DNA of 64,000 nucleotides. Origin: Lunularia cruciata. Lineage: Eukaryota > Streptophyta > Marchantiopsida > Lunulariales > Lunulariaceae. Position 1 is the stretch's first letter; each line of letters opens with the position of its first letter. The position numbers and the translations under genes were made by a program. Shown here one piece after another: positions 39,444 through 64,000 of this stretch. Below the pieces are notes generated by a model that was not told the DNA's origin, did not search any database, and saw only the letters and a list, made by a program, of their open reading frames with translations. The stretch is taken from assembly GCA_948567375.1 (NCBI GenBank), contig OX419757.1, positions 71,555,836-71,619,835 of the forward strand, given 5' to 3'.

Positions 39444-39862
39444 TGTAAAAAATTGAGAGAAATAAGAAGTTAAAAGACTAGAGTGATAGATCACACGGGG
39501 ACTCTTAATGAGGGAAACTCCAAATCCCTAGCATGAGCTTGGGCTTTGGTACTTGTAGGGAACATACGAGGCTCTTGTGAAGCTTTGTTCTAAAAGTCGT
39601 CTATTTGGCGTGCAAGATAAGCTAGTTGGGAAGCTTCCTTCTAGAAGCTATCTACTTAGCATGCAAGATAAGCTAGTTGGGAAGCTTCCCAAAGAGGTTT
39701 CTTCCTAGAAGTCACCTACTTGGCATACACATTACTTGAGACTTGGGAGGTACCAAGAAGCTTCCTAGATCCTTCTGAACATTCCTATAATTCTTGGCTA
39801 ATTTGGCCTATTTGCTACTTTGTTAGTCTAAGTAACTTGTGTGTGAACTCCATATTGTTATA
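39444..39862 (-). mobile_element. Solo LTR of the element B/C chromovirus family
   Basis: Related along its length to the LTR at 59,759-60,184. In sense orientation (minus strand) it runs from TATAACAATATGGAG, where the family starts TGTAACAATATGGAG, to TTTTTTACA. It contains the same GAAGCTTC-rich upstream region. Flanks TGTTG (39,439-39,443) and GGTTG (39,863-39,867) match at four of five bases, a likely worn target duplication. No internal region is attached, so it arose by LTR-LTR recombination. Confidence 0.8.
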
Positions 39863-40738: not shown

Positions 40739-40742
40739 AAGA

Positions 40743-41297
40743 TGTCGTGCGTATATACATCGCTACACAACATACATCGCTGTCAACATCATACACTATA
40801 GAAGCACAACTCACATATAAGTCATACATAGACTCTAAAGTGCCACAATAATCAGATTGCTTAACACTTTCAACTCAACTCAACTCAGATCAGTACTTGA
40901 TCTATCACTCTATAAACTGCCAACAACTGGGCACTGATTACAGTCAAGCCACACCCACTCAAGCATAGAGAATCCAGGTGATGCTCGCCGGCCTCTGTCC
41001 ACCATAGCCAGGAACTCGAAGGCTCAACATCAGAGAAGTGAGCTCTCTGGAGCTCACTTTGAAACTATACCCCCTGGACTCGAGCTAGCATTGGAACCCT
41101 AACGGTCCCACTGAGGGCACACTCGATGGTGCAAACGGTGCAAAGTGACGGTGGGCCCCACCATGAAGTCAATACCCCGAACACCAAATCAGATTGTTGG
41201 AAAGTAGTCCTTGAGAAACTACTAGAATAACTCTAACTACTATCACTGGAACTCCAATGTCCGAGCAACTAGATGCGGAACTACAAATGGCGTGACA
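40743..41297 (-). repeat. Left (3') LTR: 105-bp segment A plus 450-bp segment B
   Basis: Segment B (40,849-41,297) matches the right LTR (50,271-50,720) at about 96%. Segment A (40,745-40,849) is absent from the right LTR but recurs on the other side of B at 41,302-41,406 with one mismatch. Read together on the minus strand, B plus A starts TGTCACGCC and ends GCACGACA, giving TGTC/GACA termini. The segment B end next to A lacks the CA seen at the end of the right LTR. Confidence 0.85.
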
Positions 41298-41301
41298 GCT
41301 A

Positions 41302-41406
41302 TCGTGCGTATATACATTGCTACACAACATACATCGCTGTCAACATCATACACTATAGAAGCACAACTCACATATAAGTCATACATAGACTCTAAAGTGC
41401 CACAAT
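41302..41406 (-). repeat. Second copy of segment A, between polypurine tract and segment B
   Basis: 105 bases identical to 40,745-40,849 except for one C/T difference. On the minus strand it begins TTGTGGCACTTTAG immediately after a G-run, which is where plus-strand DNA synthesis and U3 would start. Confidence 0.9.
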
Positions 41407-41419
41407 TGCCCCCCTAGCT
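41407..41419 (-). promoter_or_regulatory. Polypurine tract
   Basis: Minus-strand AGCTAGGGGGGCA directly before segment A. The six-G run is the expected primer for plus-strand synthesis of an LTR retrotransposon. Confidence 0.75.
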
Positions 41420-41573
41420 GGCGGTTAGGTCCCTCTTACTCCAAATAGCCATCTACTCTAAGTATATGGTATACCCTCTAATGGGCAAAGATCAGGAGGC
41501 CGGGTGCTATGGAGCCCCATCGTTAGTCGCCTGTCTGCAATCTATACCATATAAAGAATGAACTAGCTATAGG

Positions 41574-41849
41574 TCAAGTACATCTAGGACATAACCACTG
41601 TCCCTGAGGAACTACCGTGAGGGGAGGAGTCATACATGCCATATGCCATCCTCTCAAACAACTATCACACACTAACATAGTAGCAACTCCACCAAAAGAG
41701 CCACATAACATACACCTCAAGCTTGCACGTACAAGTGCCAAGCTTGGGTCCATAGTACCATCAATGTTTGGAAGGTGGCATGGCGTACAATTGCGCACAT
41801 GATCCTTGCAAACAACACCATCACGCCTTCTAACACAAGGACTCCACAT
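41574..41849 (-). pseudogene. C-terminal PHD finger of the pol polyprotein
   Basis: The last part of pol encodes a Cys4-His-Cys3 zinc finger: CMLC, 11 residues, CDSC, four residues, His, two residues, Cys, 14 residues, CPRC (zinc ligands between 41,580 and 41,713), followed at once by a stop. Spacing and the GWH...C...P..W.CPRC pattern are those of PHD fingers, which read histone H3 tails. It lies where chromoviruses carry a chromodomain, so a role in choosing insertion sites is the natural inference. A further Cys/His cluster (VCKDHVRNC) precedes it. It is one base out of frame with the integrase upstream; the change sits near 41,840, so the domain was once fused to integrase. Zinc ligands look intact. 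Confidence 0.88.
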
Positions 41850-43152
41850 GGAAAAACCTCGCGCACTCTCAAGATAGTGCGGCCTGTAGAAACATCAAGT
41901 ATCGTCGGTGCTGTCTGCTGTAAATATACATAGTCGCTTGGATGAAATCTACGGATCGATGGTCTATAACCTCCTCTTCAAATGGTAGCATAGCGTAAAG
42001 TATCTCTATGTTGAGCAATCGCCAAGTTCTCAAAGGCCATCGGCATCACTCTCCGAAAGATCTCTGCCCGTTGAGAACATGCGCTCATCCATACATTGGG
42101 GTCATCCAAGTCCAAAACTACAGTAGCATCTCAACGAATGGCTGCAGGTAAATCTGGATCTCGTCCATAGAGTAGAAAGTATAGAGAGAAGGATGCTAAG
42201 GAGGCTTGCCGGCTGAACCAATAGCCCATGGCCAACCAAGGTAATTGGAGATCCCAATCTCCCAAGTGGCCTCTCTGCAAACCATACTTTTGCAATCCTC
42301 TCTTCACCGTCTAAACCACTCTCTCTGCTAAGCCATCTGCCTCAGGGTGATCTCGAGATGTAGTACAATGATCAATCAAAGCCTTGTCACACAAGACCTA
42401 AAACTCTCCCAAGAACTCTGTACCCTGATCAGTCAAAACCTCAACTGGTGCACCAAAATGACTAAGAACTCGATCCAAGAACGAGTAAGCTGTCCCTTCA
42501 CTAGACTTGTCAGGAAGTGCCACCAACTCAATCCACTTGGAGAAGTGCTCCACCATCACCAAAACATACCGATGATGTCTCACAGTCAACGGTAAAGGTC
42601 CGGCAAAGTCCAAACTCCAACGGTAACCCAATCCCATGATAGGTAATGGGTGTAATTGTGGCGTAGGAGCATTGAATGATGCTCTAACTCGGTCACAAAC
42701 CACACATCTGGCAACAAACTGATGTACCTTGGTCTACATACCGTGCCACCAATAATGACTCTAGAGTAAGCTATATGTACGCTTTACTCCAAAATGTCCT
42801 AGCTCCTCATGAGCATGACGGACCAACTGTGGTCTTTGTGATGGAAGTGGTACTACTCGCACTCTACCATCCTCCCATACATGCAAAAGGTGTCTACCCT
42901 CCAATCTGAACCGTCTGGCTTGCTGAAGAACACGGTCTCTCTCTCCTTGGCCCCAACTATGCCACCCACAACACCAATGCAAAGATAGTCCATCACTAAG
43001 ACATCATCATGAATGTCTCGCTGAACTATACCAATATCTTCACTCTCTGGATTTGTGACCTCAATAACTCCTCCTGTATGCGCTAAGAGAGATACTACCA
43101 AAGTCTCTGCAAATATACACAGAAAGGCCGATGCATGCCAACCTGGCACCAT
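41850..43152 (-). pseudogene. Integrase of the methyltransferase element
   Basis: Inserts element DNA into the genome. The HHCC zinc domain is visible (HEELGHFGVKR, later CVVC). The catalytic core shows the three acidic residues: Asp in SLDFAGP, Asp in LTDQGTEF, Glu in HPEADGLAER. The C-terminal part continues to a beta-rich tail before the PHD finger. In-frame stops interrupt it in at least five places (for example before SHYWW and after the first residues of the GTEF block), each TAG or TGA where Gln or Arg is expected. A frame change near 42,950 separates it from RNase H. Non-functional. Confidence 0.9.
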
Positions 43153-43188
43153 CTCCTCATCTGTCTCACCATGCCAACGTGCTCCGGT

Positions 43189-44850
43189 CTAATCCTGTTG
43201 GTTGGGACATGGGTTTCTACTCAACCCATCTGCATCACGGTTCACCACTCCAGGTCTGTGAACAACCGTGAAATCATACTCCTGTAAAATCAGAGCCCAT
43301 CGTGCAAGCTTCCCTGAAAGCTTGTCGGACTCCATCAACCACTTCAACGGCTGATGATCAGTGATGAGAGTGAAGGGGTTACCAAATAGGTAACATTGGA
43401 AATGTGCTACTACCCAAACTGCTACCAAGCACTCTCCCTCATATGAACTATACTTCGCCTCCGCTGAATTGTTGGAGCAACTAGCATAGGCCACCACAAA
43501 CTCCTTCTCCTCATCATCATGCTGGGTGAGCACCGCTCCAAGCCCCAACGTACTCCAATCAGTGTGAACCTGAAATGGTCGTCCCCTGATCGGTCTCTTC
43601 AAAATAGGAGCAGATGTCAACCTCTCCTTGAGCTCTACAAAAGCTCTCTCCTGCTCATCTCCCCAACACCACTCCTGTGTAAGCTTGGTCAGCTTCGTCA
43701 AGGCCTTGGCAATGGCACTAAATCCTCTAACATAGCTGCAATAGAAGTTTGCCAACCCAAGGAATGCTCGCACTCTACTCACATCCGTAGGCCAAGGAAT
43801 ACGTGCAATAGCCTCCACCTTGGTCTGCTGGACACCAAGTCCTTCGGGGTAGATAGTGTGACCCAAATACTCAACCTGCTCGTGGAAGAACCTACCCTTC
43901 CCAAGATGTAATTTGAGTCCATGAGATCTCAACCTCTCAAACACCTCCAACAACTGTCTCTCATGCTCCTCCACAGTAGTGCTATAGACCAAAATGTCAT
44001 CAATATAACACCAAGCAAAATCCAATCCAGCTAGGATCCTATCCATGACCCTCTGGAACTCAGCAGGAGCATTCTTCAACCCAAATGGTAAGAACCTCCA
44101 CTGATATAACACATCCTTGCCGTGAGGATCAATAGCCCAAAATGTTGTCTTGGACTTATCCTCCTCCCTGATCGGCAACTGATGATATCCCGCTCAAAGA
44201 TCCAAAGTACTGAAGACCTTTGCATGCCCAATCGCATCAAAAATCTCCTCCGGTGTAGGCATGGCATACCGATCAGCCTTGGTCTGTCGGTTGATAGGAC
44301 GGTAATCTCCACACATCCGCCTATCTGTATAGTTGCCATGCATATCCTTCTTGGCTGGCATCACTGTCGTTGATGCATACTCTCCATGTGAAATCTCTAC
44401 CAAACCAGCCTCAAAAAGGTCACTACTCTGGCTCTGAATCAATGTCCTCTCCATATCACTATATCGATAAGGATGTCGGAAAACAGGTGTGTCGCTAGTC
44501 AGCTCAATCCGTATACCATGTCCCTTCAGAGCACCCAAATCCTTCATACTGAAGGCAAAACAACTCATGTGACTCCTCAAGAACCTCCAAACCCTCCGTC
44601 TTTCCTCTCTAGTAAGCTTGGGTCCAAGATCTGGCTCCCAAGTATCCTCTGTAACTGTAGTAGGAGTGGAAGACGTACTGACTGGCTACTACACTGGGCC
44701 CTTGGGAGCAATAGTGTCATGCTCTCGACCACTAGAGGTCCAAACCTCTGTGTGAAAAACTCCCTCCACTCTGGTTGCAAGCTCCACACGTCCTCTGGCT
44801 GCATCCCATGTGGACCAAGGGTGTAATCCAAGTAGCCCACGCTCACCTAG
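43189..44850 (-). pseudogene. Reverse transcriptase and RNase H of the methyltransferase element
   Basis: Copies element RNA into DNA. The longest intact frame of the element (44,178-43,189, 329 codons) holds the palm core with YIDDILVYS, the thumb and RNase H (HTDWSTLGLGAVL, YEGECLVAVW, TDHQPL, and a DADGLSR end typical of Ty3/gypsy). The fingers region lies upstream (44,580-44,194), separated by one TGA between LDL and AGYHQL, where Arg is usual. A frame change lies near 44,630. The region to 44,850 links to the methyltransferase. Confidence 0.93.
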
Positions 44851-44999
44851 ATGGACTCCAAGTAGACCACTCTCCCTAGTAGCTACTAGATGTGTCCCAA
44901 GAATACCATGTCCACTCGGTCCATCGCCCCCAGCATGTGCCTAAATTGTCTCGATAGGCACAAGGCTCACAAGTGTCCGAGTGGTGATGCCTATCAAGC

Positions 45000-46250
45000 G
45001 CATCCTACGCTGCTATGCCAAGCCAAGGCTCACAATCCAGGTCAAACAGTTCAAGTCCATAGCCTGACCTAACACTTGACGCCTGGATGCCTTTGACATT
45101 GCTGGAACAGCGGTAATACCAGTGTGAAAACCCATCGCCCACTCTCTCTCATCAGCGTTGGGCTCCACCAACTACTGTAACTGTGAGTCCCAAACAAGTC
45201 TAGGTCCTCCCTCTCAAAAAGCATGAGAGCTTGGGAAACTCATGAGTGTGGGAAATGCAGCTCTAGGTTGTCCAACTAGGTTCACCACTGCCATAGGTGA
45301 CCTATCAGCCACTACCACTATCTGAGACTAACGTCCAGCATCCAAGATATCATCAACAAGAATGTGGTCTAGTTGTTGAATCCCATCATAACTACGTTGT
45401 AGAACCTCTCTGGGTAAGAGGTTCATCCACCAAAGACAAAGACGATGAGCCCGTGATCCCACTCTGGCTACATCTAACAATATAGCAGGTCCCATCCATG
45501 AATGGACCTGATGTGTACTTGCCACCACTCTAGTGCGAGAATCACCCAACAAAGGAACATTCTCCAAAAGGTAAGCTGGAGAAACAGACTGATGAACCTG
45601 GAGATGTCGTAGTATCCGTAACATCTCCCAAAACACACCAGAACGAGGATCCTAAAGACCCAAACCGCGGCCCGCACGTGTATGTCCTTGACATGGCCAT
45701 CCAGAAATCACCAAGTGAATAGGCCCATGTCTCTCTAGGTCATGCGCCCCCAGTAAGGAAATGTCTCCTGGTAAGGCCTTCTGGTAACCTCTGACTGCTG
45801 ACATTGGTAATAACTTTGGATACCAATAAGCCAAGTGTGCCACATGATGTAGAGAGACTCGCCTAGCAGTCTCATCTCTCTCTACATACAAGTACCTCTG
45901 TACTCATATACCCGCCTGTAACACCGCAGCTAGTCCGGTGCTGATCCCACCAAACAACTCCAATAGACATATCCCCTCTACTGGATACTGCCAAGCAATG
46001 AGTGTGGTATCCAGAGGTGTCAAAGCAATCGCCTCTAGAGGCTCATCCTCACACTCATTCCTTGATTGTACGAAGGCTCCACTCCAAGCCTGCTGCACCA
46101 ACTGATCTGCATGCTGCTGCAATGCCTCCTCTGAACTCCACAATGGAACATCCAAGGTGGATGGAACAATCCCACTCGTACTCCAAAGCCGAGTGATCTC
46201 CTCTGGTACTGGAGTATCCTCTGCATGGGCGTTCCCCTCCACCAAGTCAC
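45000..46250 (-). pseudogene. Cytosine-5 DNA methyltransferase domain within gypsy pol (DNMT3-like)
   Basis: Transfers a methyl group from S-adenosylmethionine to cytosine C5 in DNA. Minus-strand frame shared with protease and reverse transcriptase. In order: motif I LELFGGISTGLAA (about 45,925-45,965, SAM binding); motif IV SGWPCQGHTRAG with catalytic Cys in PCQ at 45,689-45,697; motif VI LLENVPLLGD (ENV at 45,556-45,564); motif VIII-like VGSRAHRLCLWW (about 45,440-45,475); a C-terminal motif IX/X-like part with MGF, SRRQVLG and AMDLN (about 45,040-45,140). There is little room for a target-recognition domain, as in DNMT3. The linear order differs from plant DRM proteins, whose motifs are rearranged. 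At least five in-frame stops (TGA after motif I, TAG after motif IV and others) make it dead here. The region lies between protease and reverse transcriptase, not inserted beside the element. Confidence 0.92.
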
Positions 46251-46259
46251 CAGGCCAAG

Positions 46260-47448
46260 TAATTGCACCGCTGAAAGCCAAAACTGATGCTACCATGGTC
46301 CCAAATTGTAGTGAGCCAAGACTGCCACTACTGAAGCGTACTGGTAGGCGACATACCCGTCCCTCACCAGACTGCCAACCAGGTCTATAAAAGGTTGTCT
46401 CCTCCCAATAATCAATGCTAAAACCCATAGGGTATAACACTACTCCCCCAACTAGCACATCATATGACTCAGCTATTGTCTCAATAGCCTGACCTCTCAC
46501 CACCGAGCTATCAGTCGGATGACCAGGCTGAACCTGGACAACAAGCTCTCCACGTGTGATGTACTATGTCGAACCACCACCAAGAGATGTTTGGATCTGA
46601 AATGGACACCTCTCCACATCGGTCTTCCGTAACTCCAAACCGACAACTGCAGCCTTCCCCAACATAAGGAGCTGCGCACCAGAGTCTAACAAGACTCTCT
46701 GTGGTGTATAGACCTTCCCTGAAGGTCCTACCAAACGAAAGATCCCCCTCTGGTTATCCAATAGGACAACACTAGGTGTAAACCGCGCTCTCTTAAAGGC
46801 TGGTCTAGCTGGCAACTCCTCCAGTCTAGCCGCTGTTGCCTGCCATAAACCACTGGTCGCTGAACGGATCCCATGCTCCTCAACCAAGTCAGATCCACTA
46901 CCAACCACCTCTGCTCTAGTAGTAGGAATTGCACCATCCCTACTCTCACACAACGTGGCAGCCAACCGGAATATTGGGGCTGGGTCAACTCCCAATGTAA
47001 ACATGTCACTGGCTGAAAATAAAGGATGCCGCATAATCAGCTGAGCCGCCCCCAACATCATGCTAGACTCAATCTGTGTAGTAGCAGGTGGTTGACTAGC
47101 AGGTACTCCATCAAGTACTCTATCACCACCTACCACACCTGCACTGGGACGTCTAGGAACCATGGATGTCATTTGTAATGCCTCAGATAGCGTGAAAGAC
47201 TAGGGAAGTCTGACCTGTCTCCCAACCTCTCCTCTCTGTGGGTCCAACTCCACTGATGCTCCTCTAGGCTCTGGAGCATGTACTGCACTCCTAGTCATTG
47301 CTACAGATGCATCCACCTGTGCTGCTCCGCACATGAAGTCCAAAGCATCTCTATCACCAGCATATGAGGTGGAAGCCTCAGCACCCAAATCTGATCTCCT
47401 CTGAGCAATAGCCATACTAGCCAATCTCTGCTCAATCCGAGTAGCCAT
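46260..47448 (-). pseudogene. Aspartic protease of the methyltransferase element
   Basis: Processes the gag-pol polyprotein. The active-site triad DSGA is at 46,678-46,686 in LLDSGAQLLML, followed by a typical second half (YDVLVGGVVLYPMGF, about 46,415-46,470). Stops at 47,200 and 46,564 (both TAG) break the frame. The N-terminal part (47,448-47,200) is a Ser/Ala/Arg-rich linker after gag. It is in frame with the methyltransferase downstream. Confidence 0.85.
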
Positions 47449-48976
47449 AGTTGTGTCAGAAGTAAGGGCAAGTACTGCACCCCTACTAGGTGTAGATCCT
47501 CTACCACCACTTCTACTACCTCGTCCTCCATGAACTGGAGCTCCTTGAGCTCCAGTTCATGGAGCTCTACTACCTGCCATAGCAGCCCTACCACTCCGTA
47601 ACTCCGGGTGAGGTCAAAACACCGGTCACTAGTGTGACCAAATCTGTGGCAGTGCTCACACTGCCTCTGTGCTGGTTGTGATGCACCAGAGGTATCAGGT
47701 CCGCTGCCCTGAGTACACTCTCTCCTATGGTGAGGTCCACCACAAGTCCAACAAGCAACACCACCACTCATTGGCTGCTGCTGACCCAAAAATGAGGGTA
47801 AGGGTCTAACTCCACTAGGCTCTCCACTCGCTCCATAGGATCTAGGCTGTCCACCCTGTCCTTGAAAACCAACTGGGCGTGGTGCACTCTAGAAGAAGTC
47901 ACAACCGTGGATGAGGTCTCTCTACCAAATCCAGCTGTCACCACTCTCTCCTCCACCATGTTGAGCTCAATACGCTCAGCCAAACCAAAGACTACTGCCA
48001 AAGTGGGCGAAGTAGCCTGCAACAACATAGCATCACGAACTCTACGTCGTAACTCCCTGTCCAGTATCCCATACCAAAACTGGACTGCCTGGGCCTCAAT
48101 AACTCCCTGAGTGAAACTGATCAGCCGCCTCATGCGAGTATATGCCTCGCGTGGGCTCTCTCTAGCCTTCCGCTGGAACTCCTACAAGCTCCTCAGCTTG
48201 TCAATCCGCACTCCCTGGTAGTTCTGCCTCAAACATAGGAAGAACTCAACCATGGGGTTAAACCCTGGTACCACACCACCTCTTGCAGCGGTACCTCCAC
48301 TTGTAGTAGCACTATCTCCAGCTAGTGCACCTCCACTAGCTCCACCAACACTACTCGAGCTAGAACTCGTGGGTACAGCCAATCTACTCCTGGCCACCGA
48401 GCCTAAAGTAATGGAGACATAGTGTGGAGACCATTACTGTCTCCATAACTCAATCTCCTCCAAATGAGCTCTCCTGAACTCATGGTAGTTATCCATCAGC
48501 GGACCCTCCAGATGCTAGAACAACCCCTTCTATGCCATGAAGGGTGTGAACAAAGTCGGGTTCCGCATCTGCTGCAGATCACACCAACTATCAAACTCCT
48601 GGATGAAGTCATCCAACTCAATGGTACCCACTGTACCAGAGTAACACCTATGGCCTTTGGAGGCCCCATAAATCTTGTCCATGTCCCACAACAACGGTGC
48701 GGACACACCAAGTGCACTCTCAACTGAATCAACTCCTGTGTCGAACTCCAACTTAGAGTCAATCTCCTCCCTCACTGGGACCTCAGATACAGGCTGATAC
48801 CGAGCACCACTCCGAGTAAACCCACTGCGTACTGCAGGGCTAACTCCTCTGGAATCTCCAAAGAACTCCGTCGTGACAAAGTAACCACACCAACAAACCC
48901 AAACCACCAATTGCAACCACAAGTCACAACCGCAAGTACCCCACCAACTGCCAACACCACCGTGTGCCAACACCAA
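47449..48976 (-). pseudogene. gag with zinc knuckles of the methyltransferase element
   Basis: Forms the virus-like particle and binds element RNA. The capsid-like part runs from about 48,976 to 47,900 (contains ESPREAYTRMRRL and VIEAQAVQFWYGIL). It is followed by two cysteine-rich knuckles, CWTCGGPHHRREC (one residue short of the canonical spacing) and CEHCHRFGHTSDRC (canonical CX2CX4HX4C), at about 47,630-47,760. A Gly/Arg-rich tail leads to protease. Four or more in-frame stops and two one-base frame changes (near 47,890 and 47,605) break it. The changes look like simple deletions because the reading continues sensibly after each. Confidence 0.85.
47528..47562. repeat. 35-bp inverted repeat between gag and protease
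   Basis: Arms of 16 bases (CCATGAACTGGAGCTC and its exact complement) flank a three-base loop. It lies where gag passes into the protease frame. Confidence 0.8.
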
Positions 48977-50268
48977 CTAAACACCACCCACTAATGTAAC
49001 TCTAACCAAGATAACTACACTAGGGGAAAGGGCACCTGTAACCTGCCATCATAACACGCACTCTCACGGTTTGCAGGTCATCACTTCCTGCCTCACCGGA
49101 GAGAAACAAAGGTAGTCTGACTGGTCATCACTCTAGCCTCACCACCGAGAGCACACCAGAGCACCAACGCTCAAAAGTCAGGGCACCTCACACAAACGTG
49201 GTGCACAAACAGGAAGTAGAGAATGGAGGGGATCCAATCACAAGAAATCTAAACAAAAACCTTCCATCTCATAACACAACACGGGATTGACCTGCCACCA
49301 TTTGGCATTTGACATAAGAGCAGTTCGTATCTAAGTCCTAAGCTACCAGGATCACTAAGAATGGGATCAAACTGCCTCTCTTAGCCAAAGCTACATGTGT
49401 ATAGATAACAGTGGCGCAGTCGCTAGGACAACAAGTGAGGGTGGACCAGTTGGCTAGGGCACCAATCTAGGAACAAGAGATCTAGGGGTCAAACCCTGTT
49501 GCACACAATCTAGCAAGAAAGGCAGATTTTGCCAACCAATGGCCAAGATCTACTCTAAACTAGCTAGCCTCACGCCAGCAAGCTGGCCCTTCTAGGCCTT
49601 CGTAGCCTCTCATAGCCCACATCCCTATGCCTCGAAGCCTTGAAACTCCAAATCTGGCCAAACAGCAAAAACTCCTCCAAATCTGACGTAAACCCTAAAG
49701 ATGACTGTCCGCCAAATCCCCCGCTAACTTTCCACTCGAGCCACTTCAAAACCTCCTCCAAAATTGGCAAAACTTCTCCAAATCTGCGAAAGTCCTCCAA
49801 ACTAGCAAAACTCCTCCAAATCTGGCCAAACAGCGAAAACTCCTCCAAATCTGACGTAAAATCTGACGTAAACCCTAAAGATGGCTGTCCACCAAATCCC
49901 CCGCTAACTTTCCACTCGAGCCAACTTGACAAAATGGGTTTTTCCAAATCACAATTTCATGAGAAGAGCTTCCCAACTCCACCTTCAATTTCACTTTCTG
50001 AGCCCAACTCGCAGCAAATTGGTCCTGCCTTCACCTCTTGAGCTCAAAATCACAACACTGCTCGAAAATTGCTCCTTCTTTGCTCGAAATTTGGCCAGCG
50101 CTTCCGCACACCGTCTGCCTAACTGCCAAATTTGAATCACTTGAACGAGCTTCTGCACACTAAGGAAACACAGAACTTGAATTGAGCTACCACGATCCAC
50201 CGAGCTTGGAGATACCACCAACACTCAACGTTCTTGCACCCGATTTCCCCTTGACTTCACTTCTCTGA
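48977..50268 (-). other. 5' leader of the methyltransferase element with a 168-bp direct duplication
   Basis: Non-coding leader between the right LTR and gag. Segments starting at 49,649 and 49,817 are direct repeats 168 bases apart (both CAAATCTGGCCAAACAGC, later CCCCCGCTAACTTTCCACTC). Both strands stay open through the repeat by chance (125 and 133 codons), with no recognisable domain. Confidence 0.7.
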
Positions 50269-50720
50269 TGTAATCAGATTGCTTAACACTTTCAACTCAA
50301 CTCAACTCAGATCAGTACTTGATCTGTCACTCTATAAACTGCCAACAACTGGGCACTGATTACAGTCAAGCCACACCCACTCAAGCATAGAGAATCCAGG
50401 TGACGCTCGCCGGCCTCTGTCCACCATAGCCAGGAACTCGAAGGCTCAACATCAGAGAAGTGAACTCTCTGGAGCTCACTTTGAAACTATACCTCCCTGG
50501 ACTTGAGCTAGCACTGGAACCCTAACGGTCCCGCTGACGGCACACTCGATGGTACGAACGGTGCAAAGTGACGATGGGCTCCACCATGAAGTCAGTACCC
50601 CGAACACCAAATCAGACTGTCGGAAAGTAGTCCTTGAGAAACTACTAGAATAACTCTAACTACTATCACTGGAACTCCAGTGTCCAAGCAACTAGATGCG
50701 GAACTACAAATGGCGTGACA
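50269..50720 (-). repeat. Right (5') LTR of the methyltransferase element
   Basis: On the minus strand it starts TGTCACGCC (50,720) and ends CTGATTACA (50,269). It matches segment B of the left LTR but lacks segment A on either side. The next bases inward, TCAGAGAAGTGAAG, share only TCAGAG with the usual initiator-Met tRNA primer site, so the primer is unclear. Confidence 0.88.
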
Positions 50721-53339: not shown

Positions 53340-53834
53340 TGTAACAATATGGAGTTTACCAATGAGTTAGTCAAGACTAAAGAAATAGCAAATATGCCAA
53401 ATTACCCAAGAATTATAAGAATATTTTAGAAGCATCTAGGAAACTACTTGGTACCTTCCAAGTATTGGGTAATGTGCATGCCCAATGGTGACTTCTAGGA
53501 GGAAGCTTCTTGGCTAACTTAGCTTGCATGCCAAGTAGATGGCTTCTAGAAGATAGCTTCTTGAGAATCTTCCTAGCTAGCTTAGCTTGCACGACAAGAG
53601 ATGGCTTTTAGAAGGAAGCTTCTTGAGAAGCTTCTCCGTAACCTTTGCTTGCATTCTAAGACTGTAGCTTTTAGAAAGCTTCTTGACAAGTTTCTCAAGA
53701 GCCTTGTATGCTTCCCTATAAATACCAAAGCCTAAGCTCATGCTAGGCATTTAGAGTTTCCCTCATTCAAGAGTCCTAATCTGATTGTTCACTTTGATCT
53801 TCCATTCTCCTATTTCTCTCTTTGGTCTTTTACA
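53340..53834 (+). repeat. 5' LTR of a plus-strand element of the B/C family
   Basis: Runs from TGTAACAATATGGAG to GGTCTTTTACA, the family's termini, with a TATA box (CTATAAATA near 53,715). It is followed by TTAGTATCAAAG, close to the initiator-Met tRNA primer site. The flank before it (ACTTG) is not repeated after the next LTR copy, so the element end is not confirmed. Confidence 0.8.
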
Positions 53835-54350
53835 TTAGTATCAAAGAAAAAATGAGATGGATAAAATTTATGGACCACCAATCTATTTTTGCCAAACCAT
53901 TGAGATTTTTCTATCCATGTATTACACAAGCATCATTTCACATAGTCTTTCATCTCACGCTTTGGGTAGAATTTTTGGATGCAATCACTTTGTCTAATGA
54001 ACCCTTGGTACTTCCAATTGTAACTTATGGAAAGAATGGTGGACATGTTGCATCTACATGTTAACTTAGATAAATTATAGGTTGTTTGATATAGTAGTAG
54101 CTATGGCAGCAATGCCCAAAGTTATCATTGCCATGTAGTAACAAATCAAGCACCTTACTCAATGGTTGGAAGAATGAGATCATCAACCACAATAACATGT
54201 AGAGAGAACACTATTTTGAGAAGGAGAAGAGTGAATATGATTTATGAAGCCCCAAGGTATTTGAAGGCAAGCACCTCTTTGGCATAGTGGAAAATTTTAT
54301 GTTTGATTGTGAACAAGATTGTGAATTCAAGATTTTAGCCTACAATATTG
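53835..54350 (+). pseudogene. Truncated leader and gag start after the first LTR
   Basis: This stretch repeats, with divergence, the sequence following the second LTR copy (TTTATGGACCACCAA, later TTTGAAGGCAAG and TTTGATTGTGA). It ends abruptly where the partial LTR begins, so gag is cut off after its first part. A partial duplication or nested insertion is likely. Confidence 0.6.
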
Positions 54351-54696
54351 TAAAAGTATCTATGAAGCTTCTTGGGAAGCTTCACGGCTAGCTTAGCTTG
54401 CATCCCAAGTAGGTAGCTTCTAGAAAGAAGCTTTTAGTAGCTCCAACTAGCTTAGTTTGCACACCAAGTAAACAACTTCTAGAAGGAAATGTCTTGAGAA
54501 GGTTCTTGATTAACTTGGCTTGCACTCCAAGAAAGTGGCTCAAGGAACCTTCTTGAGAATCTTCTCAATGCCTTCTATTCTCCTTATAAATACCAAAGCC
54601 AAAGATCATGCTAGGCATTTGGAGTTTTCCTCATTCAAGTGTCCCAATGTGATCTTATATTCTCCTATTTCTCTCCTTGGTCTTGTGTCCTTTACA
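54351..54696 (+). repeat. Partial LTR of element B
   Basis: Begins inside the LTR (GTATCTATGAAGC corresponds to the middle of the full copies), so the first part is missing. It keeps the GAAGCTTC-rich region, the TATA box (TTATAAATA near 54,585) and the end (CTTTACA). It is followed by TTGATAGTAGAGC, a worn initiator-Met primer site. Confidence 0.75.
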
Positions 54697-55860
54697 TTGA
54701 TAGTAGAGCAAGAATGGGATGGATGGAATTTATGGACCACCAAATCTCTTTCTGCCAAACCATTGGGATTTTTATGTCCAAGTACTACCTAAGTATCATT
54801 TCACACAGTTCATCATCTCACACATTGGGTAGGATTTATTGAATACAATCACCTTATCTGAGGAACCCTTGGTACTTCAAGTTATAACTTATGGAGAACA
54901 ATGGACATGTTGCATCTATGTGTTAATAAATTAGATAAATCATGGGTGGTGTGATTAAGTAGTAACTATGGTAGCAATGACCAAAGTTATCATTGCTATG
55001 TAGCAAAAAATTGAGCACTTTACTTGATTGTTGGATGAATAAGATCATCGATGACACAAGCACATAGAGAGAGTACCAGTTCAAGAAGGAGAAGACCAAA
55101 TCCAATTTCCAAAACCTAAGGTTTTTGAAGGCAAGAATCTCCCAAGTGCAATGGAGAATTTTGTGTTTGATTGTGAAGATTTTCTTGAAGCTACCAACCT
55201 TTAAGATGAACGGAAATAGATTCTCTTGGATTCTAGTCAATTGGATAGGTAACAAAGTTATGGTGGAGATTCCAAGTGGAGTGAGCTAAATGGGAAATTA
55301 TTGCACCAATCTTGACATGGGCAAAATTCAAGAGTGCAATAATTGGTTGATTCCAAACTATAAATGCCACATGAGTTGCATAAGATAGGTTGGTAGAGTT
55401 TGAAGCAAGTTGGTTCTATAAGAAGTTACATCACACAATTCCAAAACACTTTCATGCAAATTCTATCTAGATATATTAGAAGGTGAAGCTCTAGATCAAT
55501 TTATGAGAGTCTTGAAGTCACAAACCAAATTAGAGGTAACTATGCAAGAGCCACAACACTTGGAGGAAGCCATGCGGTTGGCCAAACGCGTTGATTCCTT
55601 AATTGCAACAACTTGGTCTCAACCTCAACCTCCACAAAACCTACCAATACACTATGCATGGGTGGAGAAGCCGGCACCAATTGAGATTGATTTATTCAAT
55701 AAAGACCACTTGGCATTGTAGACAGAGAAAAACTGTGACAAAAATGGTGATTGTTTCTATTGTCGCCAATTGGACATTATATTGTTGAATATCTGCTCAA
55801 GAGTGGGCAACCTTGGCAAGTAGCACAGATGGAGTTTGTGGAGCAAAATGATTAGGGAAA
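54697..55860 (+). pseudogene. gag of element B
   Basis: Fragmented gag in several frames. A capsid-like segment (about 55,503-55,721) is followed by a wrecked zinc knuckle (CFYCRQ near 55,750, in which the His and last Cys expected from element C are lost). Many stops. Strand and order agree with the pol downstream. Confidence 0.65.
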
Positions 55861-55869
55861 CAAGGAATC

Positions 55870-58005
55870 CTAGTAGGAGATTTTGAGTCACCTATTGGAA
55901 ACTTGATTAGTTCCAATGGGATTGAAGGCTCAACCTATGCAAGTTTGCTTCACTTGCAAGGTATGATATTTGATTGTGATTGTAGGATTTTGGTTGATTC
56001 TAGAAGTTCAAAAAATTGTTTGTCTATGCAATTAGCAAAGGAATTACGTATTCCTATCAAGCTAGTAATTGGAAGTAGATTGATGATGGCGGATGGTAGA
56101 AAGGGACTTTTATTCTATACCTTGCATCCTATTACCTTCAAGATTGGGAAGGAGTATTTGGAGTGTATGAAATTTGTAATAGTGCCTCTATACTTTGATG
56201 TCATTCTAGGTCTACCTTGGCTTGAACATCATAAGGTTCAATTTGATTGGAACCGACAACAAATTCAAGTACAACATCAAGGTCGGAATTTCTTATTATG
56301 TTATCCGTCATCTTAGAGTAAGACACCTAAGAATAGTTAGTCCCAAGATGAGAAGTTTGTTAGGAAAGTAGCCATAGAGCAAGCTTTGAAGGAGGATGAG
56401 TTCTAAGATGAGAATTTTGTTAGGAAAGCAACTAGAGAGTAAGCTTTGGAGGGAGATGAGTCCGTAGATGGGAATTTTATTAGTGAAGCAACTATAGAGC
56501 AAGCTTTGGAGGAATATAAATCTATTTTTGTTGTATAGATCAAGCCGATTGCACAAGGAGAATCTAATGAGGGTCAAGAGCCTCATCAAGCAATGGTTGA
56601 TCAAATAGTTCAGAAGTTTGCGAACGTGTTCCTAGATGATCTACCAAAGGGATTATCTTCCAATTGTGGTATGCCCTTCAAGATTGAGTTATTCAGAGGG
56701 AGTACTCTAATGAGTAGACCAATCTATGGACTCTCACCAAAGGAGTTGGAGGAGTTGCAAACAACGCTTATAGAGTTGTTGGAGAAGGATTTCATACAAC
56801 ATAATACATCTCCTTGGAAAACACCAATACTATTCATTCCAAAGAAGGATGGAGGACTTCATTTTTGTATTGATTACCGTATGCTCAATAAACAAATGGT
56901 GAAGAATGCATGTCCCTTACCTCAAATTGATGACTTGCTTGATCAATTGAGTGGAGCACAGTACTTCTCTAAATTGGGTCTTTGTAATAGCTATTGGAAA
57001 ATCACCATAGATAGGGTGGATGTACAAAAGACTGCCTTTTGCACAAGGTATGAGCATTTTGAATAGAGAGTTTTACCTTTTGGACTCACTAATGCTCCAA
57101 TAGTCTTCATAGATCATACCTTGGATAGATGATGGATAGACTATTGGGTTGGTACGTGATGGTGTTTTTGGATGATATCTTAATCTATAACAAGATAGAG
57201 GTAAAACATGTGAATCACATGCAAGAAGTCAGATGACTATAACAATAGAAATTCCACTACAAGAGGTCAAAGTGTGCCTTTTGGTAGAAGGAAGTTACCT
57301 TCTTGGGTCACAAAATCTCATTAGAAGGAATCAAGATGGAAGAGGAGAAAATCAAGGCTATTATTGATTGGCCTACTCCAAAGGATACTATAGAAGTATG
57401 GGCATTTAATGGATTGGCTAGTTTTTACCAATGGTTCATCCAATATTATGCCCACATGGCCGCACCATTGACCAACCTCTTGGAGAAGAACTCGAGCTTT
57501 CAATGGACCATCAAGCACAAATAAGCATTCCAAAAGTTGAAACATATGGTGTCTCCAAGACCCATTCTTTAACCATATGACCCTCAACTACCTTTTGTGG
57601 TTGATTAGGATGCTTCTAACTTTGCCATTGGATCTATATTACAACAAGAATTCCTAGTTGGATTACATCACATTGTCTTTGTGTCTTGCCGACTAAAAAC
57701 CGCAGAAAGGAATTACTATGCTTGAGGTCAAGAACAACTAGCAATGGTATATGCCATCAAGATATGGATACATTATCTCTTGGGGAAATAGGTGGTCATG
57801 AAAATTGATCACAAGCCATTGTTGTAGACATTACACTTGGAACACGTGAAGAGTCAATATCATATAAGGATGAAAGGAACAACTATAATTGTTTGACATC
57901 AAATTGGAGTACAAACTTGGTTGGTTCCATGTCATCCTTGATGCCCTATCACAATGACATGATTTGAAATCTCTTCCTCTCATCATGGTAGAAATTATAA
58001 AAATA
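55870..58005 (+). pseudogene. Protease, reverse transcriptase and RNase H of element B
   Basis: Protease at 55,903-56,316 carries DSR where element C has the active DSG. Reverse transcriptase starts in the frame at 56,593-57,066 ([34 protein letters not shown]) and continues in broken frames with FLDDILIYN near 57,170. RNase H follows in pieces (about 57,400-57,960, including VVMKIDHKPLL). Many stops and frame changes. Same family as element C, in opposite orientation. Confidence 0.85.
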
Positions 58006-59758: not shown

Positions 59759-60184
59759 TGTAAAAGACCAAAACCGAGGAGAGAAATAGGAGAATGGAAA
59801 TTCACATTGGGACACTTGAATGAGGGAAAACTCCGAATGCCTAGCATGAGCTTTGGCTTTGGTATTTGTAGGTAGCATACAAGGCCCTTGAGAAGCTTCT
59901 CAAGAAGCTTCCTCAAGCCACTTTCTTAGAGTGCAAGCCAAGTTAACTAGGAAGCTTCTCAAGAAGCTTCCTTCTAGAAGCCGCCTACTTGGCGTGCAAG
60001 CTAAGCTAGTTGGAGGCTTCTAGAAGCTTCCTTCTAAAAGCTACTTACTTAAGGTCCAAGCTAAGCTAACCAGGAAGCTTCCCAAGAAGCTTCCTAGATA
60101 CTTCCGGAATATTCTAGGCTAATTTGTCTTATGTGCTACTTCGTGAGCCTGACTGACTTTGTCACTAAACTCCATATTGTTACA
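59759..60184 (-). repeat. 3' LTR of element C
   Basis: 426 bases, minus strand TGTAACAATATGGAG ... GGTCTTTTACA. Carries repeated GAAGCTTC blocks. Two perfect three-unit heat-shock elements are at 60,018-60,030 and 60,102-60,114. The TATA position is worn (CTACAAATA). Confidence 0.93.
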
Positions 60185-61600
60185 TATTCCCCCGCCGCTA
60201 GTTGGTGACGTCCTCGTCGCTAGTGAAGCTTCAAATTCTCGGATGGCCGTTTGTGCATTGTGGAGGTGAGAAAGAGGTTCCCAGGTGGCATCATGAAGGG
60301 GATACCCTTTCCAAAGGACCTTGTACTCCGTATGTTGGCGACGGCCTTGTTGAATGTGGCGATGCGCAAGGATACGATCAACTTCATACTCCTCATGATC
60401 ATTGATAGGGATAGGAAGAGGGGGAGGTTGGACTCGAGAGGAAAAGGAAGAGGGGTTAGGAACAAAGGGTTTCAACTTGGAAACATGAAAGACAGGATGG
60501 ATACGCATGTGACAAGGCAAGGCAAGATGATAAGCAACAGGAGAGACAATTTGGGTGATATCAAAGGGTCTTATCCAATTAGGGGCAAGTTTACGAACTT
60601 GGGTATCAAGTGGGAGAGGGAGGTTACTAGAAGATAGCATGACTTTATCACCGACTTTGAAGGTGAGATCTCGACGATGGTGGTCCGCATATTGTTTTTG
60701 GCGATTCTGAGCAACAAGGAGGTGAGACTTGGCTTGTTGGAGAGATTGGGATATAGTGGTCAAGAATGTGGAAGTATGAGGAACCTAAGATGGAGGGGGA
60801 GCAAGAAGAGAATTTGGAACAAGTGGATCTTGGCCAAAATTGAGAAAGAAAGGAGAGAATCCAGTGCTTGCCTGTTTGGAATTGTTCTAGGCAAATTCGG
60901 CAACCGCAAGACATTCATCCCAATTGGTATGGTGGACATTGACAAAGGCATGCAACATATCCTCCAATGTACAATTTGCACGTTTGGTTTGTCCATTAGT
61001 TTGACAATGATAGGCCGTGGACAAAGCAAACTTGGTGCCGAGTATCTAAAAGAGTGCTTGCCAAAACTTCTCGGTAAAGCAAGGATCACGGTTGGAGATG
61101 AGTACACATGGCATTCCATGATGCTTGAAGACATTGTCGAAGTAGATTTGCACTAAGGTTGGAGCATCCACGGTATCACAGGTTGGTGCCAAGTGGATTT
61201 GCTTACTAAGCTTATCCACAAACACCACGATGGCGGTGTGTCCTTGTTTTGTCTTTGGCAAGGATGTGATGAGATCCAAGCTCACATGCTCCCAACGAGC
61301 TGATGGAACGGCAAGCGGTTGAAGGAGTCCACCCGGCTTCTGGTTGCTGGCCTTGTTACGTTGGTAGCTCTCACACCATCGGACAAATTCTTGAACATCT
61401 CGTGTCATGTTGGGCCACCACCATCGACATTGGAGGGTACCCAAGGTCTTGTCCACACCCATGTGACCAGCAATGGGTAAATCATGGGCTTCTTGAAGGC
61501 GCACAAGTCAAAGATCACCTTTGGCTGGAACATAGATCCGGTCTGCATGGAATAGAAGGCCTTCCTTGAAGGAGAAGGTGTTGTACTCCTTGTCACCTGT
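60119..61600 (-). pseudogene. Integrase with C-terminal chromodomain of element C
   Basis: The frame 61,504-61,046 holds the HH half of the zinc domain (HDLPIAGHMGVDKTL) and the first two catalytic Asp (SLDLITSLP; NRDPCF). The second Cys of the CC pair reads Tyr (WCESYQRNK). The expected third acidic residue reads Lys at 60,983-60,985 (GQTKRAN). The frame 60,763-60,119 carries the C-terminal part and a full chromodomain (EYEVDRIL ... YKVLWKGYP ... TWEPL, about 60,255-60,400), which guides chromoviruses to marked histones. The pol stop lies within the LTR. Stops between the frames and the active-site change indicate an inactive integrase. Confidence 0.92.
60185..60198 (-). promoter_or_regulatory. 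Polypurine tract of element C
   Basis: Minus-strand GCGGCGGGGGAATA immediately before the LTR start TGTAAC. Expected primer site for plus-strand synthesis. Confidence 0.85.
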
Positions 61601-62925: not shown

Positions 62926-64000
62926 TTACAACTCCTCCAACTCCTTTGGTGAGAGCCGATATATTGGTCTACTCACTGGAGTACTCCCTGGCAATAACTC
63001 GATCTTGAAGGGCATACCTCGATTGGCAGGTAATCCCTTTGGCAGATCATCCGGAAACACATCTCCAAACTCTTGAACTATCCGATCAACCATTGCTTGA
63101 TGAGGCTCTTGGCCCTCCTCAGATTGTTCTTGTGCAATTGGCTTGACCCACACCGCAAATATAGACTTATCTTCCTCCAAAGCTTGCTTTATGGCCGCTT
63201 CATTAACAAACTTCCCTTCCAGGGACTCATCTCTCTTCCAAGCTTGCTCTATGGTTGCCTTCTTGGCAAACTCCCCATCTTGGGACTCATCTCCCTTCCA
63301 GATTTGCTCTATGGCTACCTTCTCGACAAACTTCCCATCTTGGGACTGACTATTCTTAGGCGTCTTACTCAGAGGTGCCAGACAACCTAATCGGAAATTT
63401 CTACCTTGGTGTTGTACTTGAATTTGTCGTCGGGTCCAATCAAATTGAACCTTATGATGTTCAAGCCAAAGTAGACCCAGAATGATATCATAGTGTAGAG
63501 GTGCCACTACAAACCTCATACACTCCAAATACTCCTTCCCAATCTTGAAGGTAATAGGATGTGAGGTGCAGAATGCAGAACTCTTTCTACCATCCGCCAT
63601 CATCAAACTACTTCCAAACACTGGCTTGATAGGAATACCTAATTCCTTTGTTACTTGCATAGACATACAATTTTTTGAACTTCCAGAATCAACCAAAATC
63701 CTACAACCCCGATTAGATATCGTACCTTGCAAGTGAAGCAAGCTTGCATAGGTCGAGCCTTCAATCCCATTTGAACTAATCAAGCTCTCAGTAGGCGGCT
63801 CGAAATCTCCTATTGGGATTCTTCGTTTCCCTGAACATTCTGTTCCACAAACTCCATCTGGGCAACTTGTCGAGGTCACCCATTCCTAAGTGGACATTCA
63901 GCAATGCGATGTCCAACTTGGCGACAATAAAAGCAACTTCCATTTTGTCATAATCTTTCTTTATCTGCTGTGCCAAGTGGTCTTTGTTGGATAGCATCAA
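62926..64000 (-). pseudogene. End of gag, protease and start of reverse transcriptase of element C
   Basis: A zinc knuckle CFYCRQVGHRIAEC (CX2CX4HX4C) lies at about 63,880-63,930 in one frame. A 317-codon frame (63,879-62,926) then holds protease with an intact active site (RILVDSGSSKNC), three copies of an acidic/Lys-rich spacer of about 20 residues (around 63,180-63,330), and the start of reverse transcriptase (PIYRLSPKELEEL). gag and pol are in different frames; this may be the original arrangement or decay. The 5' end is outside the window. Confidence 0.9.
63160..63330 (-). repeat. Three coding tandem repeats of about 57-60 bases in element C pol
   Basis: Three diverged copies of a unit encoding a Ser-x-Asp-Gly-Lys-Phe-type start, then an Ala-rich and acidic part, lie between protease and reverse transcriptase. 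Element B has corresponding copies at about 56,340-56,520, so the repeat predates their divergence. Probably a flexible linker. Confidence 0.6.

Follow-up and report, generated by a model that had tools for sequence, protein, structure and literature searches.

A 64,000-nucleotide stretch of the Lunularia cruciata genome (contig OX419757.1, positions 71,555,836 to 71,619,835, forward strand; hereafter the window) carries on its minus strand, at 40740-50720, a single decayed copy of what is very probably a Ty3/gypsy-type retrotransposon with a DNMT3-type cytosine-5 DNA methyltransferase in its polyprotein, a judgement that covers its identity, its family and its layout. The order of the element is gag, protease, C5 methyltransferase, a conserved in-frame UAG, reverse transcriptase (RT), RNase H, integrase and PHD finger. 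A gypsy element with a captured methyltransferase in pol had been proposed from the letters of the window alone (the original prediction), and relatives in named land plants were found.

The five ordered methyltransferase blocks on which that prediction was founded are all present, on the minus strand, within 45001-45975. Translated as a single protein with X at stops, the region matched the Pfam DNA methylase profile PF00145, as had been anticipated (E 1.2e-7; 31.9 bits, cut-off 22), and human DNMT3A at 2.8e-8, while a profile built from ten relatives matched DNMT3A at 3.3e-23. A structure search with relative P0003, in which the methyltransferase part alone is well modelled, placed DNMT3 DNA enzymes as the top-ranked folds. 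Chance motifs as the source of the five blocks are ruled out by the PF00145 and DNMT3A matches, the profile and the structure search. The motif order is linear and unpermuted, unlike the permuted order of DRM-type enzymes, so that by motif order, DNMT3A matches and fold search the domain is to be classed as DNMT3-type with a DNMT3 fold, much as the original prediction had it. Six residues of catalytic type (Cys95, Gln96, Glu138, Asn139, Arg178 and Arg180) are invariant across the ten aligned relatives; in three of the ten, including the Closterium one, Glu-Cys-Gln replaces Pro-Cys-Gln. Six stops interrupt the methyltransferase of the window copy (45906, 45654, 45330, 45216, 45174 and 45015). 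The prediction that protease, methyltransferase and RT share one frame held as to reading phase, but this phase is broken by the six stops and by a UAG before RT. Catalytic motifs and a DNMT3-like fold are common to the element enzyme and the DNMT3 and DRM methyltransferases of the host, unlike which it lies within an intron-free polyprotein. The host genes noted were a locus with two DNMT3-like exons (L001), the second with DNMT3A as best solved match (2e-14), a permuted DRM-like gene (L002) and a CMT-like exon (L003), the last two named by eye.

The genome search covered 74 contigs (565.8 Mb). PF00145 matched at least 123 places, 116 of them, as read from the table, in the same part of the profile; all 24 of these 116 that were opened belong to the methyltransferase element family. 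The best 112 of 51,287 candidates in an RT search were all 98-100% identical across the entire query. Because the two lists overlap at only about eleven places, the family exceeds 200 copies; the window copy appears on neither list. The first 20 copies were picked for long open frames. A second, methyltransferase-blind sample comprised 20 RT places taken at roughly even steps down the RT list, still among the best RT copies, and all 20 carry the methyltransferase (19 across all 975 bases, one across 738). Late insertion into one copy is ruled out by this result, and copies without the region, which the original prediction had named as the finding that would overturn it, did not appear. Ten of the 20 have no methyltransferase stop and seven have neither stop nor gap there; six of these seven keep every catalytic-type residue checked.

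The remaining domains of the window copy, all on the minus strand, were mapped from the less decayed copy L014, Pfam having been run on open reading frame (ORF) 1 of copy L009 and ORF2 of L014. The gag part of ORF1 (46756..48976) has two CCHC-like knuckles and a weak Pfam match (E 0.07 in L009), and is broken in the window copy. The aspartic protease (46356..46756) was recognised by motif alone (DSGAQ near 46692), Pfam searches of the window region and of the L009 and L014 ORFs giving no match for a protease. RT (43834..44388) and RNase H (43264..43683) were placed by Pfam and by mapping from L014. The DDE integrase (41987..42886), with H2C2 zinc domain and rve core, and the C-terminal PHD finger (41574..41732; PF00628, 2.2e-10) were found in L014 and mapped to the window. 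The Gypsy order protease-RT-RNase H-integrase is thus present, the protease by motif only, and the Pfam list of L014 ORF2, which has the rve and H2C2 integrase domains, includes no tyrosine recombinase. Of 21 copies, that in the window is the most divergent, with 3.3% of compared sites unlike the per-column majority.

At the methyltransferase/RT boundary (44689..44691 by junction reading, minus strand) a TAG codon stands in all 45 junctions obtained, 25/25 in the first set and 20/20 in the RT-picked set; L004, the 26th locus of the first set, yielded no junction and is not counted as family. The context UAG-CAR-YYA is found in 43 of the 45 (24/25 and 19/20), the exceptions being the window copy (TAG-CCA) and L053 (CAG-GCA); the codon after the UAG (44686-44688), TAG in the window copy, reads CAG in the remaining 44. 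According to passages of PMC2194720, this context by itself is sufficient for read-through in plant viruses, tobacco mosaic virus among them. RNA structure was looked for 3' of the UAG, and none was found there. The methyltransferase is on the gag-protease side, separate from the RT frame. This layout strongly suggests that Gag, protease and methyltransferase would be made together, and that RT, integrase and PHD finger would be made only through occasional read-through of the UAG. Since the methyltransferase lies upstream of a stop of leaky type, Gag-like amounts of the enzyme are predicted in the particle.

The protease would free the methyltransferase made with Gag, and the enzyme would sit in the particle at the site of complementary DNA (cDNA) synthesis. 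There, on the reading that we favour at somewhat less than even odds, it may methylate cDNA of the element itself, up to or during integration, and the new copy would then be marked from its arrival in the genome. Methylated cDNA could evade recognition as foreign, or adopt a host-like state immediately; parts of the report on KnitGypsy-Dnmt3 of Klebsormidium nitens (de Mendoza et al. 2018, PMC5890265) argue similarly for dinoflagellate elements. Less likely, the substrate of the methyltransferase is host chromatin around the target site of the integrase-PHD protein, where the enzyme would silence the neighbourhood and limit damage. A PHD finger on the integrase polyprotein could tether such a complex to histone tails, and C-to-T change is strongly raised at CG (5.7%) and CHG (4.2%) relative to CHH (0.6%), so that CG and CHG methylation has probably covered the DNA in which the copies sit. 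Nevertheless, no link ties these marks to the element's enzyme, CHG methylation is made by host CMT-type enzymes, and an enzyme linked to Gag would more naturally be packaged with cDNA. Also doubtful is a role of the methyltransferase in RNA modification, or in nucleic-acid binding within Gag, with its ability to methylate DNA secondary or lost. Its position on the Gag side of the UAG would suit such a role, as would the Glu-Cys-Gln variant and the report, in passages of PMC5890265, that no methylation was obtained with the K. nitens enzyme in yeast, an inconclusive result; against this, the catalytic Cys, Glu-Asn and two Arg are kept in all ten relatives, and the top-ranked folds are those of DNA enzymes. 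Variants present in at least two of 21 copies gave nonsynonymous to synonymous (N/S) values per site of 0.33 for the methyltransferase, 0.34 for gag-protease, 0.18 for RT-RNase H and 0.48 for integrase, and singletons 0.63, 0.69, 0.44 and 0.61, respectively; for transversions alone the methyltransferase values are 0.44 (shared) and 0.62 (singletons), from very few changes. In this sample of chosen copies with biased mutation, these values fit, if weakly, selection on the methyltransferase similar to that on gag.

The C-to-T bias at CG and CHG accounts for the many TAG stops, and CAG-to-TAG is a frequent CHG decay change. The conserved UAG, common to all junctions of copies that are close kin, might on these grounds be a disabling mutation that became fixed in a family unable to move by itself and dependent on another element for its mobility. 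We consider this improbable: long open frames flank the UAG (1209 and 1037 aa in L013, 1142 and 1037 aa in L014), the next six bases keep CAR-YYA in all but two junctions, and nine of 14 Marchantia and metagenomic relatives end at most 150 residues past methyltransferase motif X in gene models made by other authors. Two of the 14 (P0004 and P0009) continue into RT, and three (P0002, P0005 and P0007) were not judged, the search motif not being found in them. The methyltransferase also continues to RT without a stop in Closterium P0042 and in K. nitens P0281 (KFL_009030040), which we take to be a KnitGypsy-Dnmt3-type element. The methyltransferase/RT layout therefore seems to have changed within the family.

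Relatives were collected by three protein searches that scored the candidates sharing most words, two of which list 120 matches, so that absence from them means little. The hosts were Marchantia polymorpha, Sphagnum fallax and Closterium NIES-53 in the first search; Calypogeia fissa, Sphagnum troendelagicum, Marchantia paleacea, Riccia sorocarpa and Closterium NIES-54 in the second; and Haematococcus lacustris, Chlamydomonas eustigma, Monoraphidium neglectum, Cymbomonas tetramitiformis and Klebsormidium nitens in the third. Members of the family are thereby known from chlorophytes, charophytes, mosses and liverworts. Of 281 collected proteins, 115 have the methyltransferase after RT or RNase H and nine have it before RT, the queries having favoured the first group. 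No stand-alone methyltransferase was recognised by names, lengths and domain lists in the best 120 of 330 matches, and none of 42 pattern matches in viral contigs was confirmed. Two metagenomic relatives (P0209 and P0226) list both a chromodomain and a PHD finger, and a further relative (P0230) is filed under a bacterial metagenome-assembled genome (Minisyncoccia), where algal contamination is most likely.

A tree of the kind that the original prediction had called for, with 43 element rows set against host DNMT3 and DRM, recovered the element methyltransferases as one clade (100/100), separate from the host genes L001 and L002. Within it, a 25-row group (99/99) unites K. nitens P0281, Closterium, Calypogeia, other bryophytes and some metagenomic rows, and a bryophyte group of 13 rows includes the host element (100/100). 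In a second methyltransferase tree (32 rows, without DRM and P0044), 11 rows with the methyltransferase before RT grouped at 99/98, rows without visible RT being placed by their protease-methyltransferase order, and the position of the methyltransferase changes once on this tree. An RT-RNase H tree gathered the 16 rows with the methyltransferase after RT into one group (100/100). Judged by the methyltransferase and integrase trees, the element belongs with the methyltransferase-bearing gypsy elements of K. nitens by shared ancestry, which also supports the earlier suggestion of descent from an old algal lineage and not of fresh capture from the host. The trees speak against the independent acquisition by which parts of PMC5890265 interpret KnitGypsy-Dnmt3, unless lateral transfer or a larger outgroup alters the picture. 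A separate capture of host DNMT3 by a gypsy element in bryophytes, apart from the Klebsormidium event, would accord with the conclusion of independent acquisition in the K. nitens lineage given in those parts of PMC5890265, but is highly improbable when the methyltransferase and integrase trees unite the host and K. nitens elements, the RT-RNase H tree is not contradictory, domain position and unusual repeat arrangement are the same, and the host's own DNMT3 falls outside the element clade.

Several points qualify the reading of an old family with a stop of leaky type. The integrase tree makes the host and K. nitens elements sisters at 93/96, slightly below the threshold. On the RT-RNase H tree the host element falls with Marchantia, Closterium, K. 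nitens and P0044 across a 100/100 branch from the 16-row group, with little resolution among them and no pairing of host and K. nitens as sisters. The outgroup of the methyltransferase tree is small, and lateral transfer of one element could also explain a single clade. The copies being close kin, the 45 UAG junctions are not independent events. Stops are also shared between copies (three in the methyltransferase, none in gag-protease, six in RT-RNase H and five in integrase), and shared variants are therefore partly recurrent decay.

The ends of the element are unusual. On the element strand the order is flank, A1, putative primer site, core, purine tract, B1, two bases, A2, B2 and flank; A1 runs from TGTCACG to GATTA and is followed by the putative primer site CATCAGAGAAGTGA, the core, AGCTAGGGGGGC and B1. 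In the window (minus strand throughout), A1, the 5' half of the split direct repeats (50271..50720, approx. 449 bp), starts with TGTCACG after the target-site copy TCTT, and the putative primer-binding site CATCAGAGAAGTGAAGTCAAGGGG adjoins it (50246..50270). B1 (41298..41406) lies directly after the purine tract (AGCTAGGGGGGCA) and ends GCACGATA-GC before A2 (40849..41297), the 3' copy of A, with 96.2% identity to A1; B2 (40740..40848), a copy of B1, forms the 3' end (...CACGACA), followed by the second TCTT. The flush identical long terminal repeats (LTRs) standard for Ty3/gypsy are thus replaced by DIRS-like A-core-B-A-B repeats, with A1 alone at the 5' end and A2-B2 at the 3' end; ordinary LTRs were dropped as a description, since B2 follows the 3' A copy in each copy with its 3' end read. 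These split ends occur in spite of a DDE integrase. With TG...CA termini, 4-bp target duplications match in 14 of the 17 copies that have both ends read (L009, L011, L012, L014, L015, L018, L019, L022, L023, L024, L026, L027, L028 and the window copy), and do not match in L013, L020 and L021. A1 and A2 are 91.7-99.8% identical in 17 copies, in some across part of the repeat only, which suggests recent activity of the family; L010, L016, L017 and L025, with one end unread, were excluded from both counts. L021 (joint about 9853) has the highest A1/A2 identity (99.8%), yet no matching target duplication. The insertion site of L023 resembles by eye the RNase H region of another copy, suggesting a nested insertion.

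The 14 bases after A1 are identical in all 18 A1 repeats read, and 32 of 37 repeats have their exact complement close to A bases 255-268; in the window A1 the complementary stretch, of inferred function, is 15 nt long (50450..50464), with TATAGTTT 27 nt upstream. This pairing suggests self-priming, in which the complementary stretch of A1 would be both transcript start, proposed at the TCACTTCTCTGATG stretch, and primer. A transfer RNA (tRNA) primer is not indicated: the sequence following A1 corresponds to no primer site known to us, and an ARAGORN scan confined to the window found no tRNA. The cDNA would be primed by the 5' end of the element's own RNA, and standard reverse transcription from primer site to purine tract would yield B-A repeats at both ends. 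Joining of the two cDNA ends would give a two-repeat circle, which the integrase would cut inside B-A at GACA/GC/TGTC and insert with a 4-bp duplication. The B1-A2 junction was located in 18 of 21 copies, with GC as the two bases in 16; a pattern search recovered the A2/B2 joint GATTA-TTGTGG in 16 of the 21. In L021 this joint reads GATTA-CATCA-TTGTGG, keeping five primer-site bases (CATCA), as would be expected if the joint arises from ligated cDNA ends. These junctions suggest integration from a circle; to our knowledge, a circle cut inside a terminal repeat is otherwise known only from tyrosine-recombinase elements.

Other repeats were noted in the window. At 60119-60784 (minus strand) the end of another gypsy integrase is followed, by eye, by a chromodomain-like stretch, from which chromodomain gypsy elements would also be present in the genome. 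Further gypsy fragments lie at 55852-57066 (plus strand) and 62926-63885 (minus strand), direct repeats with approx. 865 bp spacing and 77-89% identity at 53712-55177, and an inverted pair (39507-39562 and 53712-53767, 91%) brackets the methyltransferase element.

Elements of this kind were already known from K. nitens. As described in parts of PMC5890265, including the legend to its Fig. 4, KnitGypsy-Dnmt3 shares with the element described here the Gypsy domain set, a methyltransferase in pol that is unpermuted and DNMT3-type, and a DIRS-like repeat arrangement. P0281 has the order protease-methyltransferase-RT-RNase H-integrase with no stop from methyltransferase to RT, whereas here the UAG intervenes and the two do not share an ORF. 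The same source describes DNMT-carrying retrotransposons of Symbiodinium, SymbioDIRS-Dnmt3 and SymbioLINE-Dnmt, the former with DNMT3 in Pol and DIRS-type repeats as here; these are DIRS elements with tyrosine recombinase, or LINE elements, unlike the present one with its DDE integrase and 4-bp duplications. The main-text parts of PMC5890265 make no mention of land-plant elements, a PHD finger, target duplications or self-priming. It was the sole report of retrotransposon-borne DNMTs recognised in the open-licence literature, together with a 2025 paper that refers to it (PMC12344493, in part); the passages on DNMT3 and retrotransposons in PMC9516144, PMC10952607 and PMC6453930 mention no such element. 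Within that literature, the features new beyond the K. nitens kind are occurrence in land plants, a leaky-type UAG, a PHD finger, split repeats with target duplications, and the breadth of the family.

Among other retrotransposons, DIRS/PAT-type elements have the same A-core-B-A-B split direct repeats. They rely on a tyrosine recombinase and are not known to duplicate their target, unlike the element described here. Self-primed LTR elements of the Tf1 type have a primer site complementary to the 5' end of their own transcript; the putative primer-site complementarity is alike here and the termini are different. We tentatively put forward, as a scheme rather less likely than not, a single early capture of DNMT3 by a gypsy-type element in the green lineage and its retention ever since in a family that reaches from chlorophytes to liverworts and mosses, a position on the Gag side of a leaky stop in bryophytes that loads particles with the enzyme, and DDE integration from a circle.

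Elements encoding the very chemistry that silences them are a puzzle, and one alga and a dinoflagellate genus could have been accidents. Methyltransferase-bearing elements now look like an old and widespread feature of the green lineage, and not the oddity of one alga. The end structure poses a second question, namely how an element with a DDE integrase makes DIRS-like ends. Counts of plant DNA methyltransferases may miss a class: in one paper on the Marchantia methylome (PMC5784723), the part concerned names five enzymes, of which one is MET, two are CMT and two are DRM. With an old green-plant family present in Marchantia polymorpha, the question of why an element should carry such an enzyme becomes testable in a genetic model.
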